A stretch of 33,235 nt of DNA. It comes from Candidatus Neomarinimicrobiota bacterium (GTDB lineage: Bacteria; Fidelibacterota; SORT01). Below are positions 16,749 to 32,888 of the stretch, in pieces. The DNA is taken from contig JADFGO010000014.1 of NCBI GenBank assembly GCA_022567655.1, forward strand, positions 1 to 33,235, given 5' to 3'. A model generated the notes under the pieces. That model worked only from the letters and a program-made list of their open reading frames with translations. It had not been told where the DNA came from and made no database searches. A program made the position numbers and the translations under genes. Each line of letters starts with the position of its first letter. Positions within the stretch are counted from its first letter, which is position 1.

Positions 16749-17356
16749 TGAGCCCTCGCCTTCATCTCGCTCCATGTAGGAAGTTTTAGCGTATCGTCCT
16801 CGCTGCCGAACGTCAGATCCTCCCACCGGTATATCGACCAGCTACCGCTGAAATCCTTCGCCATCCTGAGTTTGGCAATCCCTTTCATCCGTGTGGGGAC
16901 GTTCTCGAGCTGGTGCATGATATCCAGATCATATACCTCCTCGAACGTTGCAGTGTCTGAGGGTATGGATGGTTCCTCGAATTCCTCGAACCCCAGCAAA
17001 GCAAGCGCTCCTGATGGCAGTGAAGATTCAGAAAAGATAAGATTGATGTATCTCCTCTCATCTTCAAGCGTCCAACTGTCAAAAGCGCCGGGATTGTTGA
17101 TCGCCGTCTCCTGATCGGGAATATATACGAAATCTCTCTCCGAGTTGCTCGAATCCGTCAGACAGCGCATGTAGTTATCCGCGTTCCGCTCCAAAAAAGC
17201 GTTTGACATATTTTCAAGCACCATATCAGGTGAAGTAGGCTGCTGCCAGAGACTTCTACCGACATTTTCGTCAGGGTCTTCCGCCTCACGAGTTCCGAAC
17301 AGTGAATCGCAGCCGAAAAACAGTATGGATAGGATCAGCAAAAGATACTTTTTCAT
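16745..17356 (-). CDS. Small lipoprotein, first gene of the operon
   Basis: The 203-aa product opens with MKKYLLLILSILFFGCDS, a clear lipoprotein signal with lipobox FFGC. The mature protein is acidic and carries SPDMVLENMSNAFLERNADNY, GAFDSWTLEDERRY and a C-terminal WSIYRWEDLTF. Shared landmarks with the next gene indicate duplication. I choose ATG 17356 because the signal peptide begins there; 17377 would add MFPYVQT with no function. A strong promoter ends only 6 bp before this ATG, so the mRNA may be leaderless. Family not recognised. Confidence 0.72.
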   Translation of the reverse strand: MKKYLLLILSILFFGCDSLFGTREAEDPDENVGRSLWQQPTSPDMVLENMSNAFLERNADNYMRCLTDSSNSERDFVYIPDQETAINNPGAFDSWTLEDERRYINLIFSESSLPSGALALLGFEEFEEPSIPSDTATFEEVYDLDIMHQLENVPTRMKGIAKLRMAKDFSGSWSIYRWEDLTFGSEDDTLKLPTWSEMKARAQ

Positions 17357-17362
17357 CGTTTG

Positions 17363-17391
17363 AACATAAGGAAACACCCGCCGAATGTCAA
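17363..17391 (-). promoter_or_regulatory. Strong candidate promoter for the lipoprotein-deacetylase operon
   Basis: Minus-strand TTGACA (17391-17386), a 17-bp spacer, then TATGTT (17368-17363). Only CAAACG separates the -10 element from the ATG at 17356, so transcription would start at or next to the first codon. Confidence 0.6.
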
Positions 17392-17512
17392 CGAATCTGA
17401 TTCACTATAAGGGAGCATTCTCAAATCTCGGAACCCCCCGGAAACGCTATGCGGGGACACTTACCCGCCGGAACTCAGCTCATGGGGTACTTATTCGAGG
17501 TAGTTGCAGTAG

Positions 17513-17532
17513 GGACAACTCAGGAGTTGTCC
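17513..17532 (+). repeat. GTAGGG-headed palindrome
   Basis: GGACAACT-CAGG-AGTTGTCC is a perfect 8-bp stem with a 4-nt loop, preceded by GTA to give GTAGGGACAAC. A similar unit, GTAGGGGCAATTC on the opposite strand, lies at 29987-30009. The GTAG head followed by a hairpin is the architecture of some REP elements. Confidence 0.5.
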
Positions 17533-17537
17533 GCCAA

Positions 17538-17639
17538 ATTACACACCCCGCCCCGCTGGAAGCGGGGCACCCCTCTCAAGAGGGGATTTTTCCCTCACCC
17601 TTGAGAGGAGCATCCGCCGGCTGGAGGAGGAGGGGTGTA
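17538..17639. repeat. Inverted pair of ACACCC double-hairpin repeats (copies A and B)
   Basis: Copy A (plus, 17538-17584) reads ATTACACCCC, then an 8-bp stem GCCCCGCT/AGCGGGGC with a GGA loop, then CCCCTCT/AGAGGGG. Copy B (minus, 17639 down to about 17591) begins with the same ATTACACCCC and continues into weaker hairpins. The two heads form a perfect 10-bp inverted repeat bounding about 100 bp. No gene is present here. Confidence 0.65.
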
Positions 17640-17668
17640 ATCCTCCCGGTGTAGTGAAATCACACCCT

Positions 17669-17715
17669 CCCTTCTGGAGGGTTTCGCGGGCGATGACGAG
17701 ACGCCGTATTCCGTG
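17669..17715 (-). pseudogene. Remnant of a second acyl-CoA dehydrogenase gene
   Basis: This stretch matches the 3' end of the intact acyl-CoA dehydrogenase gene (19134-19180) at 41 of 46 aligned positions, in the same orientation. The frame reads IRRLVIARETLQKGG against IQRLVIARETLKKGG. Three of the five differences are synonymous, so it probably derives from a paralogous coding sequence and not from very recent copying. Nothing else of that gene remains. Confidence 0.6.
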
Positions 17716-17745
17716 GATGTCAGAGATTGTCCCAACTCGCACTCT
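17713..17745. repeat. Degenerate REP-like unit
   Basis: CCGTGGATGTCAG at the left and AACTCGCACTC at the right match the flanks of the better REP units (CCGTGGCGGTCAG; GACTCGCACTC at 19092-19102), but the central palindrome is decayed. Confidence 0.35.
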
Positions 17746-17751
17746 ACATTT

Positions 17752-17799
17752 ATTCTGAGTGCTTGAGATTCTTCGTCCCGAAGCTTCGGGACTCAGAAT
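17752..17799. repeat. Nested inverted repeat
   Basis: ATTCTGAGT (17752-17760) and ACTCAGAAT (17791-17799) are perfect inverted arms enclosing an 18-bp perfect palindrome GTCCCGAAGCTTCGGGAC (17775-17792). Similar CATTCTGAG...GAAGAATCT units are dispersed intergenic repeats in many bacterial genomes (general knowledge, not checked here). Confidence 0.55.
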
Positions 17800-17837
17800 G
17801 ACAGCGTTCATTGTGGCGCAGTCACCCTGACTAGCGT

Positions 17838-18152
17838 TTAAACATTACTAAACAAAATGACAGATGATTTTTCGAGTCCCTTCTTTATTGTCGAAGTTTT
17901 TTCATCAAACAGTTCGATATGAACTTTCTTACCAAGTCTATTTGATAATTCGTTTTGCCATAAATCTTGGAAATCAATCATAATCAGAGTCCGTTCTGAT
18001 TCTGGCAGCGAAGGAAATTCCATAGCAATATCAATATCACTCATCTTTACTGCCTCGTTTCTAGCGTGAGACCCATATAGATAAATTTTCATCTTAAAAG
18101 GCTTAGTACTTGCCCAATCAGTTATACGCTGTTTAATAAGTTTAATGATCAT
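17838..18152 (-). CDS. Minimal nucleotidyltransferase (MNT) domain protein
   Basis: The 104-aa protein has the nucleotidyltransferase signature YLYGSHARNEAVKMSDIDIAM (GSxAR...SDxDx) near residues 24-44 and a later VHIELFDE strand that could give the third acidic residue. Such MNT proteins are usually the antitoxin of MNT-HEPN pairs, AMPylating the HEPN toxin. No HEPN gene lies next to it, so its role is open. ATG 18152 is chosen because AGAGGT sits 4 nt upstream; a longer frame to 18206 would translate the REP palindrome. It follows the RAYT gene on the same strand. Confidence 0.78.
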   Translation of the reverse strand: MIIKLIKQRITDWASTKPFKMKIYLYGSHARNEAVKMSDIDIAMEFPSLPESERTLIMIDFQDLWQNELSNRLGKKVHIELFDEKTSTIKKGLEKSSVILFSNV

Positions 18153-18164
18153 TAATACCTCTAA

Positions 18165-18192
18165 TTCCGTGGCAGTCAGGGCTTGCCCTGAC
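18165..18192 (+). repeat. REP palindrome 1
   Basis: TTCCGTGGCA head followed by GTCAGGGC-TT-GCCCTGAC (18175-18192), an 8-bp perfect stem. It lies between the RAYT stop and the nucleotidyltransferase start. The left 18 bases repeat at 18883-18900 with one mismatch. Confidence 0.75.
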
Positions 18193-18202
18193 GCCATGTT
18201 TA

Positions 18203-18763
18203 TCAATAGATAATTCCTTTTATATCGGTTAGTGTCAGAAATCTCTCATCTCCATCATCATACCAACCGGCACTTGAATAGAGAAATTTCTCCGCTGTTT
18301 CCATAAGACCTTTTCTCACCGGATTTCCATGGATATAATTTATTTTCGTTCTCGTCGTCTCAGGTTTTCTTAACTGCAAATCGTCAAACCTCGGCATCCA
18401 TACTTGGTTGGATTGTTCTTTTGTCAGTCCAAATTCTTCTGCCGATCTCCTGAACAGTTCTAAGAGTGCAGGAGATTGTTCATTAGCGAATTCTAATATC
18501 TTTTTAGCTGAAAACGATTTCCACTCTCTGATAAAATTTGATAAGTCTCCCTTGTTGATTGATTGTACTATCATATGAATATGGCTCGGCATTAGACAGT
18601 AGCAGTAAATTTTCATCTCGTATTTCTTTCGCACATCTTCCAACAATTGAAGACACGACGTTGCTAATAACTTGATATGAAATACACTGATATGATGTGT
18701 AATCGTAGTGGTGATGAAAACCGGGAATTCGGAATCGTCGTATTTTGTTCTTCCTCTTTTCAT
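18203..18763 (-). CDS. REP-associated tyrosine transposase (RAYT, Y1/IS200-like)
   Basis: The 186-aa protein is a single-domain HUH nuclease of the Y1_Tnp family. It has the HUH motif in CLMPSHIHMIVQ near residue 60 and a catalytic-Tyr region INYIHGNPVRKGLM near residue 150, followed by YSSAGWY, all typical of RAYTs. These act on REP hairpins as single-strand DNA endonucleases. REP palindromes occur on both sides of the gene here (18165-18192, 18772-18795, 18883-18916, 19077-19100). The ATG is 8 nt after the hairpin at 18772-18789, and no Shine-Dalgarno is seen between. Confidence 0.92.
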   Translation of the reverse strand: MKRGRTKYDDSEFPVFITTTITHHISVFHIKLLATSCLQLLEDVRKKYEMKIYCYCLMPSHIHMIVQSINKGDLSNFIREWKSFSAKKILEFANEQSPALLELFRRSAEEFGLTKEQSNQVWMPRFDDLQLRKPETTRTKINYIHGNPVRKGLMETAEKFLYSSAGWYDDGDERFLTLTDIKGIIY

Positions 18764-18771
18764 ACTTTGCT

Positions 18772-18795
18772 GTCAGGGCAAGCCCTGACTAGCAC
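18772..18795 (-). repeat. REP palindrome 2 (RAYT leader)
   Basis: Minus strand GTGCTA head followed by GTCAGGGC-TT-GCCCTGAC (18789-18772). It is opposite in orientation to unit 1, so the RAYT gene is bracketed by inverted REPs. A second small palindrome AGCACT/AGTGCT overlaps its head at 18791-18804. Confidence 0.75.
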
Positions 18796-18882
18796 TTGAG
18801 TGCTTCCACTCTCCGAGTTCTGTATTGTAATATACATCACTATAGATAGTGCCATGGAAAATCCAACCTCTAATCTCCTTTT

Positions 18883-18916
18883 TTCCGTGGCGGTCAGGGC
18901 AAGCCCTGACTCTCAC
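18883..18916. repeat. REP palindrome 3
   Basis: GTCAGGGC-AA-GCCCTGAC (18893-18910) with a GTGGCG head on the plus strand and a GTGAGA head on the minus strand, so either orientation is readable. Confidence 0.75.
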
Positions 18917-18925
18917 GTTATTCCT

Positions 18926-18971
18926 CTCCCCTTAAGGGGAGTGTCCCGGCTGAGCCGGGACAAGGGGTGTT
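18926..18971 (-). repeat. ACACCC double-hairpin repeat, copy C
   Basis: On the minus strand: AACACCCCT, then TGTCCCGGC/GCCGGGACA (9-bp perfect stem), then CTCCCCTTAAGGGGAG (16-bp perfect palindrome). Same order of parts as copies A and D with different stem sequence. Confidence 0.65.
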
Positions 18972-19008
18972 ATTATTGGGTAATAAAAACTATTGAGAAA
19001 ATATTACA

Positions 19009-19066
19009 ATTACACCCTCCGCCTTTGATAATCTTGGATTATCAAAGCCACCTCCCACAAGGGAGG
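19009..19066 (+). repeat. ACACCC double-hairpin repeat, copy D
   Basis: ATTACACCCTCC, then CTTTGATAATC-TTG-GATTATCAAAG (11-bp perfect stem), then CCTCCC-ACAA-GGGAGG. Its first stem is AT-rich and unrelated in sequence to those of copies A and C, yet pairs perfectly. Faces copy C head to head across 37 bp. The region 18764-19122 holds no gene, only these repeats. Confidence 0.65.
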
Positions 19067-19076
19067 AGGTTCTGCG

Positions 19077-19100
19077 ATCAGGATAAATCCTGACTCGCAC
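19077..19100 (-). repeat. REP palindrome 4 (diverged)
   Basis: Minus strand GTGCGA head followed by GTCAGGAT-TT-ATCCTGAT. Two base pairs of the stem differ from the other units but pairing is kept. It ends 23 bp downstream of the acyl-CoA dehydrogenase stop. Confidence 0.65.
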
Positions 19101-19122
19101 TCATACCCTATGTATGAGAGTA

Positions 19123-20274
19123 TCAATATCCCCCCTTCTTGAGCGTTTCGCGGGCGATGACGAGGCGCTGTATTTCGTTCGTGCCCTCGAAGATGCGGTG
19201 AACGCGGGAGTCTCGGTACATCCGTTCGATCTTCAGCTCGCTTGAATAGCCCATGCCGCCGTGTATCTGAACGGCATGATCGACTATCCTATCAAGCGCT
19301 TCGGAACAGAAGAGTTTTACGCACGACGCCTCCCGTGTGATTTGCTTCCCTTCATCGTACGCATTAGCGGTACGGTAGAGTATGCTTTCCATCGCGTAAA
19401 TATCGGTTGTCATTTCCGCCAGCATCCACTGTATTGCCTGGAAATCCGCGATCGGCTGCCCGAACTGTTCCCTCTGCTGCGAGTATAACGTGCTGAGCCG
19501 GAGTGACTCCTTCGCCTGACCGAGAGTTACGGCGCCGAGACCGAGCCTTCCCACATCGAGAATCGTCAATGCAATATTGAATCCCTGTCCGGGATCACCG
19601 AGCAGATTTTCATTAGGAATACGGAAATCGCTGAAAGATATCGCCGCCGTTTCGGAACCCTTGAGACCCATCTTTTTTTCGATTTTGTCGATGTTGAATC
19701 CGTCATTCGCTGTTTCAATCACAAAAGCGCCCGGACCAAGGTCCTCTCCGTCTTTTTCCATCTTGGCGTAAACGACTATGACGTCCGCTATCGGCCCATT
19801 GGTCACCCAAATCTTTGTGCCGTTCAGCACCCAATCACCGCCGTCATAAACGGCTTTCGCCTTCATCGCCGCGGCGTCTGAACCTGAACCCGCCTCGGAG
19901 AGCGAATAAGCGGCGATCAATTCACCCTTTGCGAGACCGGGAAGATATTTCTTTTTTGTTTCTTCAGAACCGAAAAGAATTATAGTCTGAGAACCGATAG
20001 ACAGGTGCGCTCCGAGAAAGGTAGCCGTCGATGCACACCCCTGGGATATCTCCTCCTGCATAGCGCAGTAGCCGAGCTCTCCAAACCCGCCTCCGCCGTA
20101 TTCCGGAGGAATGAGAACGCCCATCAATCCGGTCTCGCCTAACTTCTTGATCAGCTCCTCCGGGACCTTTTCCTCGCGCTCTATACTGTCTGCTAACGGA
20201 CGAATCTCCTGATCTGTAAACTTCTTCGCCGTGTCGCGCAGCATTTCGATCTCTTCAGGCAGTCTAAAATCCAT
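19123..20274 (-). CDS. Acyl-CoA dehydrogenase (short/medium-chain type)
   Basis: FAD-dependent dehydrogenase that oxidises acyl-CoA to enoyl-CoA in fatty-acid or branched-chain amino acid breakdown. The 383-aa protein has the substrate/FAD segments AYSLSEAGSGSDAAAMKAKA and WVLNGTKIWVTNG, the GRLGLGAVTLGQA and QAIQWMLAEM helices, VQIHGGMGY, and the C-terminal catalytic-base motif IFEGTNEIQRLVIARETL. Length is standard for the butyryl/short-chain group. ETF and other beta-oxidation genes are not nearby. A GGATAGGGA ribosome-binding stretch precedes the ATG. A remnant of a paralogue lies at 17669-17715. Confidence 0.93.
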   Translation of the reverse strand: MDFRLPEEIEMLRDTAKKFTDQEIRPLADSIEREEKVPEELIKKLGETGLMGVLIPPEYGGGGFGELGYCAMQEEISQGCASTATFLGAHLSIGSQTIILFGSEETKKKYLPGLAKGELIAAYSLSEAGSGSDAAAMKAKAVYDGGDWVLNGTKIWVTNGPIADVIVVYAKMEKDGEDLGPGAFVIETANDGFNIDKIEKKMGLKGSETAAISFSDFRIPNENLLGDPGQGFNIALTILDVGRLGLGAVTLGQAKESLRLSTLYSQQREQFGQPIADFQAIQWMLAEMTTDIYAMESILYRTANAYDEGKQITREASCVKLFCSEALDRIVDHAVQIHGGMGYSSELKIERMYRDSRVHRIFEGTNEIQRLVIARETLKKGGY

Positions 20275-30552: not shown

Positions 30553-30677
30553 TCATTAGCAAGATCCATTTTTATCTGATTAATTTCATTAGTTGAGATA
30601 AAACCATTAGCAATTTCGTTATCCAAGGTACTATATATGTCACCAAGATAAAATGAATTCCTGTGTAATAGATTCAT
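30519..30677 (-). CDS. Small phage ORF, possibly truncated
   Basis: A 52-aa frame (MNLLHRNSFYLGDIYSTLDN...) starts at an ATG overlapping the stop of the BR0599-like gene by 4 bp, typical of phage operons. It ends at 30519 inside the DUF4276-like frame. The last residues (LSKLKKD) may be an artefact of the junction. No family recognised. Confidence 0.5.
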   Translation of the reverse strand: MNLLHRNSFYLGDIYSTLDNEIANGFISTNEINQIKMDLANERGVLSKLKKD

Positions 30678-31510
30678 ATGTTCAAACAACACTTTTTTCC
30701 ATCCATCGGGTTTTTCTGTGGGATGAAAGGAAATCCACCGTAGTTATCTATTGCATCAAATTTCCCGTCGCACGTCGCGACTGTATGATCACACCCTGGG
30801 AAAGCAGTGACAGTATCACCGACAATTATCCCAGTAAAAGACAGATTCAAGGTTAATACACCTGTCGCGTTATTATGGTCGGTAATAAAACGCCTATTAA
30901 CCAAGCCTGAAACAACAAATTCAACATACCCCCCGACAAAATGCGTACTATCAAATGTAGGATTTATTGAAACAATAAAACTCGAGCTTGTTATAGTCAG
31001 CCCGGAAACATCGGTAAGAACACCATTGACATCATGTAAAGTACGTATCACGGCACATTGAACACCATAAAGTACATGTGGACATGCGGTTTGATAAAAC
31101 CTCCGTAACCCTGGCCTACGTAAAGTAGATTGAATCGGGCTACAAGTAACTTCGCCTTCGTTTTCAATTAATTTGACATTGATTACTTTACCTTTAAAAG
31201 TAATAGCAGGATCACTATCGGACGCATGAATCCGCGTAATCGTAATAGTTATAATATCTGTTGGAGAAGTTGCTATAAACTGATCAAGAAAAGTAACATT
31301 TCTACTTAGCGTTATTTTTAAAGAAGTCTTACCCAGGTCCTGAGTCGATAATATTGCACTCCTTTTAAGCGGCACCGATAGATAGATGTTACCACTGAAA
31401 TCGATATCTTCATCGCCAGAAGTATAGTACCAACTAAACACCCCTCGCTTGAATTCGTATAATTCAAGCGGTTGAAAAAATTCAGAAATTTCAACATCAT
31501 TAAAAGCCAT
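30674..31510 (-). CDS. Phage tail protein, BR0599/DUF2163 family
   Basis: The 278-aa protein has the BR0599-type C-terminus: ACPHVLYGVQCAV at about residue 142 and FPGCDHTVATCDGKFDAIDN at about 239, then GGFPFIPQKNP. The four cysteines are in the places where lambda gpL-like tail-tip proteins bind an iron-sulphur cluster. The N-terminal half (DUF2163-like) contains the ITITRIHASDSDPAITFKGKV strands. These proteins form the tail tip/baseplate hub of siphophages and gene transfer agents. RBS GGTGA precedes the ATG, 7 bp after the upstream tail gene. Confidence 0.82.
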   Translation of the reverse strand: MAFNDVEISEFFQPLELYEFKRGVFSWYYTSGDEDIDFSGNIYLSVPLKRSAILSTQDLGKTSLKITLSRNVTFLDQFIATSPTDIITITITRIHASDSDPAITFKGKVINVKLIENEGEVTCSPIQSTLRRPGLRRFYQTACPHVLYGVQCAVIRTLHDVNGVLTDVSGLTITSSSFIVSINPTFDSTHFVGGYVEFVVSGLVNRRFITDHNNATGVLTLNLSFTGIIVGDTVTAFPGCDHTVATCDGKFDAIDNYGGFPFIPQKNPMDGKKCCLNI

Positions 31511-31517
31511 AGTTCAC

Positions 31518-32888
31518 CTAATTATTTATCACAGTTGTTGGAACGACTGCGTTGGCGGTATCATTACCGTTCCAATTAATTTGTAAATTATCTGAAGTCA
31601 AACGTTTACGTCCAAGCCATGAAATCATAATTACATCCTCTGCATTAACTCCGGCACTAGAGGTAAGCGTAACTTCTAGATTCGGTGCAGAAATAGTAAT
31701 TGATGAAATTTCTCTAAAAATCCATCCAGATGTTGTTAAAATACCGATATCGTCTCTTTCGGCAGATAATGTATCTTGTCCATCATCCTCAATGAACAAC
31801 TGAATATCTAATGCACCTGTAGAAACCAATATCATGTTCGCCTCAAAAGTCGGCATCCAAAATGGACGTAATTTTCCTTCTCGCCTGTGTAACCACAATC
31901 GGTAGTTCCAGACATCTTCAAGGGTATCGAATTGGAGTCCGAATTGCCTTTGGATTTTTGTTTTTAACCATGGCGCGAAAGTATCTTGTAGGCCGGTACC
32001 GTAATCTGCAACGTCTACTCGATTCGTATATTGGTCAGTAGCGAAGTTGTCAATTGTTAGCGGGGGGTCTAAAAAGACATCTAGACCTTTATATTGAACA
32101 GCTGAAGGACTCGTCGCGAGCGTAGCATTTTCAGTTATAATAAAGTTGAAATCTAACCGCTGGTTATCACCATCCGTACTCCTTATTGGAGATGACAAAA
32201 ACCTACCGACTCTCATTGGCATAACTAGAGCAGTTATCCCAAAAACAGTTGAAATAATTGCTGTCGCTTCTATTTGGGTGGTAGTTAAAGAATTTATAGT
32301 GAATAATTCAAAATTTCTTGGAGATATATAAATCATCCCAAGACCGCCAACTCTAAAATCTGCAAATTCAGTACTAACATTAATAATAGTACTCGAACCA
32401 GTTGTCGGAGAAGTAAGATTTCGACACTCAGACGATACCGGCACTCCAAACCGGTTGATACGCCATCCGTATAACAATATGTCTAGTGGAATTATTTCAC
32501 CTCTTGGGATAGAAATATTACCCGTAAATCCTTGCCGAGGTGAACTTCTCAATTTCGTTCGTTGTTCATACCCGTCATTAGAAGTCATTACCTGGGTCTT
32601 CCAATTAAGAGTTTCTTGTAAACCTGCCTGGAATAGATAAGGTAGTGCTAAAACTCTAGTTCCAGTAACGAGAACAGTAATATCGTTGATACCGGGTTCA
32701 AAGTCAAACAGGATAGAACCGTCTATGGTAGGTGGACCAGTATCAACTGAGATCTCAAGAGTTAACTGGAGTTCTTCTAAAGGACCGAGATCAACGGGCG
32801 TACTTATCCCGGTTAATACTATCCCACCAAGGTTACTGGGAATAATATTGGTTAAAGTCGTTGTTGTGAAAAAAGCGTTGAAAATCAA
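31518..32888 (-). CDS. Phage tail protein (start uncertain)
   Basis: The 456-aa frame contains ETLNWKTQVMTSNDGYEQRTKLRSSPRQGF and later YRLWLHRREGKLRPFWMPTFEANMIL, two blocks that recur in siphophage tail or baseplate proteins encoded next to DUF2163 genes. Between them are serine/threonine-rich beta segments. The only canonical start upstream of the first block is TTG 32888, with no good RBS; the frame stays open upstream to 32984, so the true N-terminus may be missing. Its C-terminus is complete. Confidence 0.65.
   Translation of the reverse strand: MIFNAFFTTTTLTNIIPSNLGGIVLTGISTPVDLGPLEELQLTLEISVDTGPPTIDGSILFDFEPGINDITVLVTGTRVLALPYLFQAGLQETLNWKTQVMTSNDGYEQRTKLRSSPRQGFTGNISIPRGEIIPLDILLYGWRINRFGVPVSSECRNLTSPTTGSSTIINVSTEFADFRVGGLGMIYISPRNFELFTINSLTTTQIEATAIISTVFGITALVMPMRVGRFLSSPIRSTDGDNQRLDFNFIITENATLATSPSAVQYKGLDVFLDPPLTIDNFATDQYTNRVDVADYGTGLQDTFAPWLKTKIQRQFGLQFDTLEDVWNYRLWLHRREGKLRPFWMPTFEANMILVSTGALDIQLFIEDDGQDTLSAERDDIGILTTSGWIFREISSITISAPNLEVTLTSSAGVNAEDVIMISWLGRKRLTSDNLQINWNGNDTANAVVPTTVINN

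Follow-up and report, generated by a model that had tools for sequence, protein, structure and literature searches.

REPs and RAYTs are one of the foremost examples of how a bacterial transposase can be domesticated and live with a long-lived, private population of repeats, and most of the work devoted to them concerns γ-proteobacteria. The E. coli TnpAREP acts on single-stranded REP and needs both a GTAG foot and an irregular stem (PMC8266576), the foot being contacted by the region of the protein that follows the conserved W (PMC6006769). Non-proteobacterial REPs are also in print: Bacteroidetes RAYTs accompanied by non-canonical repeats were reported in 2018 (PMC6006769), a work in which subclass 2.4 RAYTs with REPs are placed in Cyanobacteria, Bacteroidetes and other groups and in which subclass 2.6, mostly from Bacteroidetes, is credited with “atypical secondary structures”, while CGTC repeats are known from Bacteroidetes and Chlorobi (PMC3733652). 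REPs devoid of a RAYT have been described both in Pseudomonas, where they were read as a possible loss of the RAYT (PMC3686654), and in E. coli (PMC8049555). The locus dealt with here belongs to a kind, that of RAYTs with REPINs, which is already known; new are the type of REP, the rule by which two different REPs are joined in a REPIN and the conservation of the repeat across phyla. The remark of an earlier note on this DNA that RAYT/REP systems are well known mainly in Proteobacteria therefore needs correction; the combination of head and hairpin (GTCAGGGC), which the note took to be undescribed, has no record in the literature searched.

The window, i.e., the whole stretch of DNA analysed (33,235 nt), is an entire contig (G000:C14) of a genome of 2.14 Mb, G000, assembled in 150 contigs and 96.6% complete. 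The RAYT gene (18203–18763, minus strand) encodes a TnpA_REP-like Y1 HUH transposase of 186 amino acids which matches Pfam PF01797 (Y1_Tnp) with 39.2 bits and NCBIfam NF047646 (REP_Tyr_transpos) with 89.2 bits, above the curated cut-off of 80. The HxH motif and the single catalytic Tyr that characterize a Y1 HUH domain are found in the Pfam match, in the alignment and in the AlphaFold2 fold; the HIH motif corresponds to H61/H63, the catalytic residue is probably Y143, and H61, H63, W122, Y143, N147 and P148 are invariant in an alignment of 25 RAYTs. The AlphaFold2 model (pLDDT 92.7, pTM 0.88) has its best PDB match (E 2.5e-9) in 4er8, the structure of a RAYT in complex with a REP hairpin, the transposases of ISDra2 and IS608 ranking behind it. 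Protein and family searches of this 96.6%-complete genome indicate that the gene is present in a single copy and return neither a second member nor any other RAYT that might own the REP. Directly after the RAYT lies an MNT/Polbeta nucleotidyltransferase ORF (17838–18206, minus strand) whose start is uncertain and whose likeness to the MntA antitoxin (34 bits) stays under the cut-off of 60; the ORFs with which the contig ends on the right (30674–32888, minus strand) look phage tail-like, as judged from their translations alone.

With the E. coli TnpAREP of subclass 2.2 (4er8), whose Y and Z REPs are assembled into BIMEs, the system shares the fold, the presence of two REP types in inverted pairs and the irregular stem, but the identity over the fold alignment amounts to 19%. 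Like TnpAREP subclass 2.6, or RAYT group 5, as described in PMC6006769, the protein displays HxH, YIHxNP and SS motifs and an insert before the conserved W, and the gene has at its flanks “atypical” hairpins of which the genome holds further copies. It nevertheless departs from the published motifs of this subclass, in that the window RAYT reads SHIH, WM and YIHGNP instead of NH[LIV]H, WQ and YIH[QN]NP, and its REPs differ from those described there in being strong hairpins, one of the two types having a GTGG foot. Several relatives belonging to the GTCAG clade described below read NHIH and WQ.

The repeats were located with R1, a covariance model of the REP whose training copies were chosen by their exact GTCAGG...CCTGAC core; window units 1–3 are rows of its alignment (A1) and unit 4 is not among them. 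R1 recovers the four clear units announced by the earlier note, and a direct-repeat search of the window also yields a four-copy family. REP 1 (18169–18196, plus strand; 48.0 bits), with a GTGGCA head and a GC upper stem, is separated by 6 b from the stop codon of the RAYT, and REP 2 (18768–18795, minus strand; 46.8 bits), whose GTGCTA head goes with a lower stem compensated to TGCT/AGCA, precedes the start codon by 4 b. Both heads point outward, so that the gene is indeed bracketed by units in opposite orientations, as had been claimed, the whole forming a REPtron-like unit REP–RAYT–inverted REP of 627 b (18169–18795, as placed by R1). REP 3 (18889–18916, minus strand; GTGAGA head; 43.1 bits) retains two of the four lower-stem pairs and is possibly a hybrid, and REP 4 (19073–19100, minus strand; GTGCGA head; 40.8 bits) has an AT upper stem and one G–T pair. 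Folded as single-stranded DNA, REP 1 reaches −11 kcal/mol (z −4.3), REP 2 a z of −4.0 and REP 4 a z of −6.1; upper and lower stems form in three of the four units and the upper stem alone in REP 3. The statement that the stem of unit 4 differs and yet pairs is thus borne out, AT replacing GC and the first pair being G–T in a unit that still folds. On the other hand, the two heads of unit 3, said to lie on opposite strands, are reduced to one: the plus strand reads GTGGCG, without the defining A, R1 assigns 43.1 bits to the minus and 18.6 to the plus strand, and the second “head” is the lower stem’s 3′ arm viewed from the other strand. Of the fifth, decayed unit (17713–17742, minus strand), recognized by eye, there remains a 75% match in the direct-repeat search; R1 finds no match there at E ≤ 1, and the fold of 17709–17738, in which the reverse-strand head is cut off, is no better than that of shuffled sequences. 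A half-REP remnant, GCTAGTCAGGGT on the minus strand (17815–17838), was read by eye only. Unrelated hairpin repeats occur in the same gap (17752–17799) as well as beside many REPs of G000 and of its relatives G001–G004.

From its 5′ end the REP consists of a foot G, a 4-bp lower stem, a bulged A, an 8-bp upper stem that starts with GTCAGG, and a TT loop. The commonest units are G-TGCG-A-GTCAGGATTTATCCTGAC-CGCA and G-TGGC-A-GTCAGGACTTGTCCTGAC-GCCA, with lower stems TGCG/CGCA and TGGC/GCCA, respectively, and both heads occur also with a GC upper stem; the frame of REP 2 is TGCT-A-GTCAGGGC-TT-GCCCTGAC-AGCA. It follows from this anatomy that GTGnnA, considered by the earlier note as a head placed in front of the hairpin, is the sum of the foot, the lower-stem arm and the bulge: there is no free head, nn being part of the covarying lower stem and A the bulge; the GTCAG core is kept in the RAYT clade. 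The pairing is supported by 22 distinct rows, in which two-sided changes affect the two inner pairs of the lower stem and the two free pairs of the upper stem in 8, 9, 10 and 7 rows, and in which this structure outscores every slid version; the six GTCAGG pairs, having served as selection criterion, provide no evidence of covariation. Compared with the canonical GT[AG]G foot, found 0–2 nt 5′ of the hairpin, the GTGGCA type reads GTGG and the GTGCGA type GTGC, and in both types all foot bases except the first lie within the lower stem.

Throughout G000 (2.14 Mb) the GTCAGGNNNNNNCCTGAC palindrome is present in 45 exact copies, while the reversed-pattern control gives 0, and 60 places reach at least 33.3 bits with R1; these copies, returned by the genome-wide hairpin search that the earlier note had proposed, together with the NF047646 score (89 bits vs 80) uphold its view of a RAYT endowed with a dispersed REP family. 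The 125 matches that R1 produces in G000 were rejected as a copy number because antisense echoes score too, up to 21.6 bits; on account of these echoes and of the fact that R1 scored 150 candidates per genome, the 60 strong places were used instead. At the same threshold G002 has 47 places, G003 and G004 19 each and G001 5. The headed motif GTGSSA-GTCAGG-N6-CCTGAC is found in 4 of the 245 genomes of the phylum, every one of them in the family of the window, and four same-phylum genomes outside the family have 0 or 1 weak R1 match each. The location is extragenic, 44 of the 45 exact copies lying outside ORFs of at least 100 amino acids (coding fraction 0.72) and the remaining one inside the extended N-terminus of ORF 17838–18206.

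Of the 34 pairs of neighbouring REPs within 400 b, 24 are head-outward, 1 is head-inward and 9 are same-strand, and in 19 of the 24 head-outward pairs the units are 9–22 b apart, which is the fixed, short spacing required of a REPIN. A regular-expression search over the fetched loci, rather than whole genomes, with heads restricted to G[TC]GnnA, gave 17 distinct doublets of 65–71 b, all of which (17/17) join a GTGCGA REP to a GTGGCA REP; their upper stems are AT+AC in 10 cases, GC+GC in 5, AT+TC in 1 and TC+AC in 1. The two REPs around the RAYT (GTGGCA and GTGCTA) keep the order of a doublet, with 571 b between the units. The REPIN spacers vary among copies and so bear no visible trace of a single master having been copied; in published REPINs, too, the spacers are diverse (PMC8049555). 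In one case (L281 10072–10165, i.e., G003:C7:30072–30165) the REP loop is split by a palindrome, CCCGCCATCGGCGG, the counterpart in G004 being intact, and several R1 matches of ~50 b suggest interrupted loops at other REPs too.

These arrangements recall the REPINs of Pseudomonas fluorescens SBW25 as presented in PMC3116915, where inverted doublets, spacers of lower conservation, a RAYT in the vicinity of a pair and lone REPs regarded as likely remnants are also found and where the simulation segments measure 71 and 110 b; unlike in SBW25, the head types differ here between the partners of every doublet found. With the GTAG and CGTC superfamilies, as defined in PMC3733652, the repeats share the nature of short, tagged, extragenic hairpins forming inverted hetero- or homodimers, but the tag that they have in common is their stem, GTCAG; neither the GTAG nor the CGTC consensus accommodates GTGC, whereas GTGG agrees with the GT[AG]G foot.

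How far the pairing of this protein with this hairpin extends can be judged from the related RAYTs. The scan of named genomes covered the best 80 of 316 confirmed RAYT relatives, to which three same-phylum loci were added to give 83; its top match is a Zixibacteria MAG (40%), and the RAYT of genome G047 is 76% identical to that of a Neomarinimicrobiota MAG, which makes Neomarinimicrobiota (Fidelibacterota) the probable phylum. The same hairpin flanks the gene on both sides in 43 of the 83 loci as opposed to 1 of 269 shifted placements, and the sequences of these hairpins vary widely. After 2 of 96 loci had been dropped for want of an ORF match, a GTCAG-stem hairpin was counted beside the RAYT in 10 of 94 rows (9 distinct loci, L018 and L202 being one and the same) vs 3 of 263 shifted placements. 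In a tree of 83 RAYTs built by a quick method, which omits L202 and 11 other rows, the ten GTCAG rows, window included, all fall inside a group of 13 whose support (75) is weak and whose other members are L176 and L177, with a GTCGG core, and L130, with no hairpin; the GTCAG label requires 3 changes on this tree compared to a shuffled mean of 9.6, and none of 500 shuffles is as low. The sister of the window RAYT is L122 (support 98), in whose repeat there also seems, by eye, to be a one-base bulge below GTCAG. L123, from a MAG titled Deltaproteobacteria and placed in Myxococcota by the taxonomy of the tree, has the repeat TGCT-GTCAGGAG-GAAA-CTCCTGAC-AGCA, a frame which, with the bulge added, is that of the REP upstream of the window gene.

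The core is multicopy within this clade: GTCAGN{8,10}CTGAC is counted 7–119 times in ten clade genomes vs 1–6 for the control (54 vs 4 in G000), and in two RAYT genomes outside the clade 1 vs 2 and 5 vs 3, so that, between RAYT clades, the abundance of the repeat goes with clade membership in the 12 genomes counted. Among the loci examined, GTCAG repeats beside the gene are restricted to the clade of the window RAYT, and their confinement there in multicopy form ties this RAYT lineage to the repeat core. On the protein side, the 25-RAYT alignment has RFD after the conserved W in most RAYTs of the clade (RYD in L142, RSD in L018), and RFD is not present in the RAYTs outside it. A second clade-wide type of repeat was encountered in the Flavobacterium/Chryseobacterium RAYTs L126, L129, L136, L143, L155, L166, L182 and L194, which are bracketed by a CGAGCG-CGCTCG hairpin adjoining CGC[TC]AGC.

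The protein family and fold, the conserved catalytic residues, the anatomy of the repeat and its covariation, the order of the REPs in the REPIN and their intergenic location are established. From these data we infer that the locus is very probably a REPtron, i.e., a single-copy RAYT placed between inverted cognate REPs, and that this enzyme would bind and cleave the REP hairpin and render the REPINs mobile. Most likely, the RAYT would bind the hairpin in single-stranded form and recognize it by its GTCAGG stem, its bulge and its GTG foot; cleavage beside the hairpin would be carried out by HIH and Y143, in a register that, by analogy with the E. coli TnpAREP, may be taken from the GTG foot. 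What moves would be the REPIN, a GTGCGA REP and a GTGGCA REP joined tail to tail over 65–71 b, of which new copies would rarely arise in the gaps between genes; lone REPs would represent remnants.

A rather improbable alternative, though the best of those considered, is that the REPs are older than the RAYT, the gene having landed beside them at a later time, so that the enzyme responsible for their spreading was lost or was a different one and the present RAYT acts little or not at all. This view draws on the situation in the relatives, for G000 is the only genome of the family in which a RAYT is found. In G002 (96% complete) none emerges from protein, PF01797 or NF047646 searches, and yet this genome is rich in REPs, 22 of 47 reaching at least 46 bits as compared with 23 of 60 strong REPs in G000 (counted by eye); in G003, G004 and G001, too, REPs occur in the absence of a RAYT. 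Thus, inside the family, presence and preservation of the REPs do not track the RAYT, and the finding of the repeat in abundance in relatives lacking any RAYT, which the earlier note considered fatal to its proposal, is in part what G002 offers; the other outcome that the note named as refuting, a lack of further copies in the genome, is not what G000 shows. The proteins that match PF01797 in G001 and G002 were rejected as cognate RAYTs, being IS200-type TnpA by full-length match and sequence (NF047646 scores of 36 and 26 bits, respectively). Furthermore, the neighbours of the RAYT site are syntenic in all four relatives, with neither the RAYT nor the nucleotidyltransferase gene between them and with no RAYT remnant above noise in the gap. 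In G001 this gap holds a single REP with the rare GTGCTA head (27 b, 92.6% match), as would be expected if the gene had arrived next to a pre-existing unit, but its flanks do not align with those of the G000 REP, so that orthology is only putative. A chance landing does not explain why RAYTs related to this one, in other phyla, have retained the GTCAG core both next to the gene and in many copies.

A gene that, from its sequence alone, was named YbhB-like occupies the RAYT site in G002–G004, and a remnant of its 3′ end persists in G000 at ~17439–17503 (78% over 65 b with G002); the 3′ end of an acyl-CoA dehydrogenase gene is found twice, at 17666–17714 and 19130–19178 (49 b, 88%), with the body of the gene missing from the left copy, and this doubling points to a duplication or to recombination in the surroundings of the RAYT. 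The REP set has changed since the species split, as REP segments present in some of G002, G003 and G004 are absent in others; their comparison yields no clean target-site rule, and in a single case a REPIN of G004 is missing in G003, with CAC at the junction. Loss of the RAYT fits G001, whose REPs are few and weak, and does not fit G002, unless the loss was recent or the gene resides in the unassembled part.

The REPtron reading is challenged even less by the idea that the hairpins are ordinary structural repeats (intrinsic terminators, mRNA stabilizers or protein-binding hairpins) that crowd the gap by chance. They are in fact strong, extragenic and conserved in sequence; however, a terminator scan of 17300–19200 names two sites, neither of which is a REP, the RAYT/REP stretch has no Rfam match at gathering score, and, where the ORFs on both sides of an exact copy could be seen (33 copies), the genes are tandem in 23 cases, divergent in 5 and convergent in no more than 5. 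Taken with the inverted doublets, their fixed spacing and the rule that their partners differ, these data make such an origin very unlikely. As to a young IS-like element moving as a whole (REP–RAYT–REP, 627 b), its compactness and its inverted ends at 4 and 6 b from the ORF would suit it, but its occurrence as a single copy in the genome leaves this idea with practically no credit.

Beyond the REPtron itself, we tentatively raise the possibility, which may well prove too far-reaching, that the repeats constitute, besides those with a GTAG or CGTC foot, a third superfamily of REPs whose tag is the stem (a TG-lower stem with a GTCAG core), and that this superfamily has remained bound to a single RAYT clade in no fewer phyla than Zixibacteria, Myxococcota, Ignavibacteriota, Bacteroidota and that of the window, while REPs elsewhere change quickly; in the family of the window, the REPINs that persist, well preserved, in a genome without the RAYT would then be maintained either by selection for a host function or in trans by a RAYT that re-enters repeatedly. 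The most useful outcome of the analysis is the combination of a clade-wide GTCAG core with relatives that are rich in REPs and devoid of RAYT. A clade having one core across phyla offers a natural set in which to search for the recognition code, by setting the RFD segment against the GTCAG stem, and a family whose members have the same REPs with or without the RAYT lets one ask what keeps REPINs intact after the enzyme is lost.
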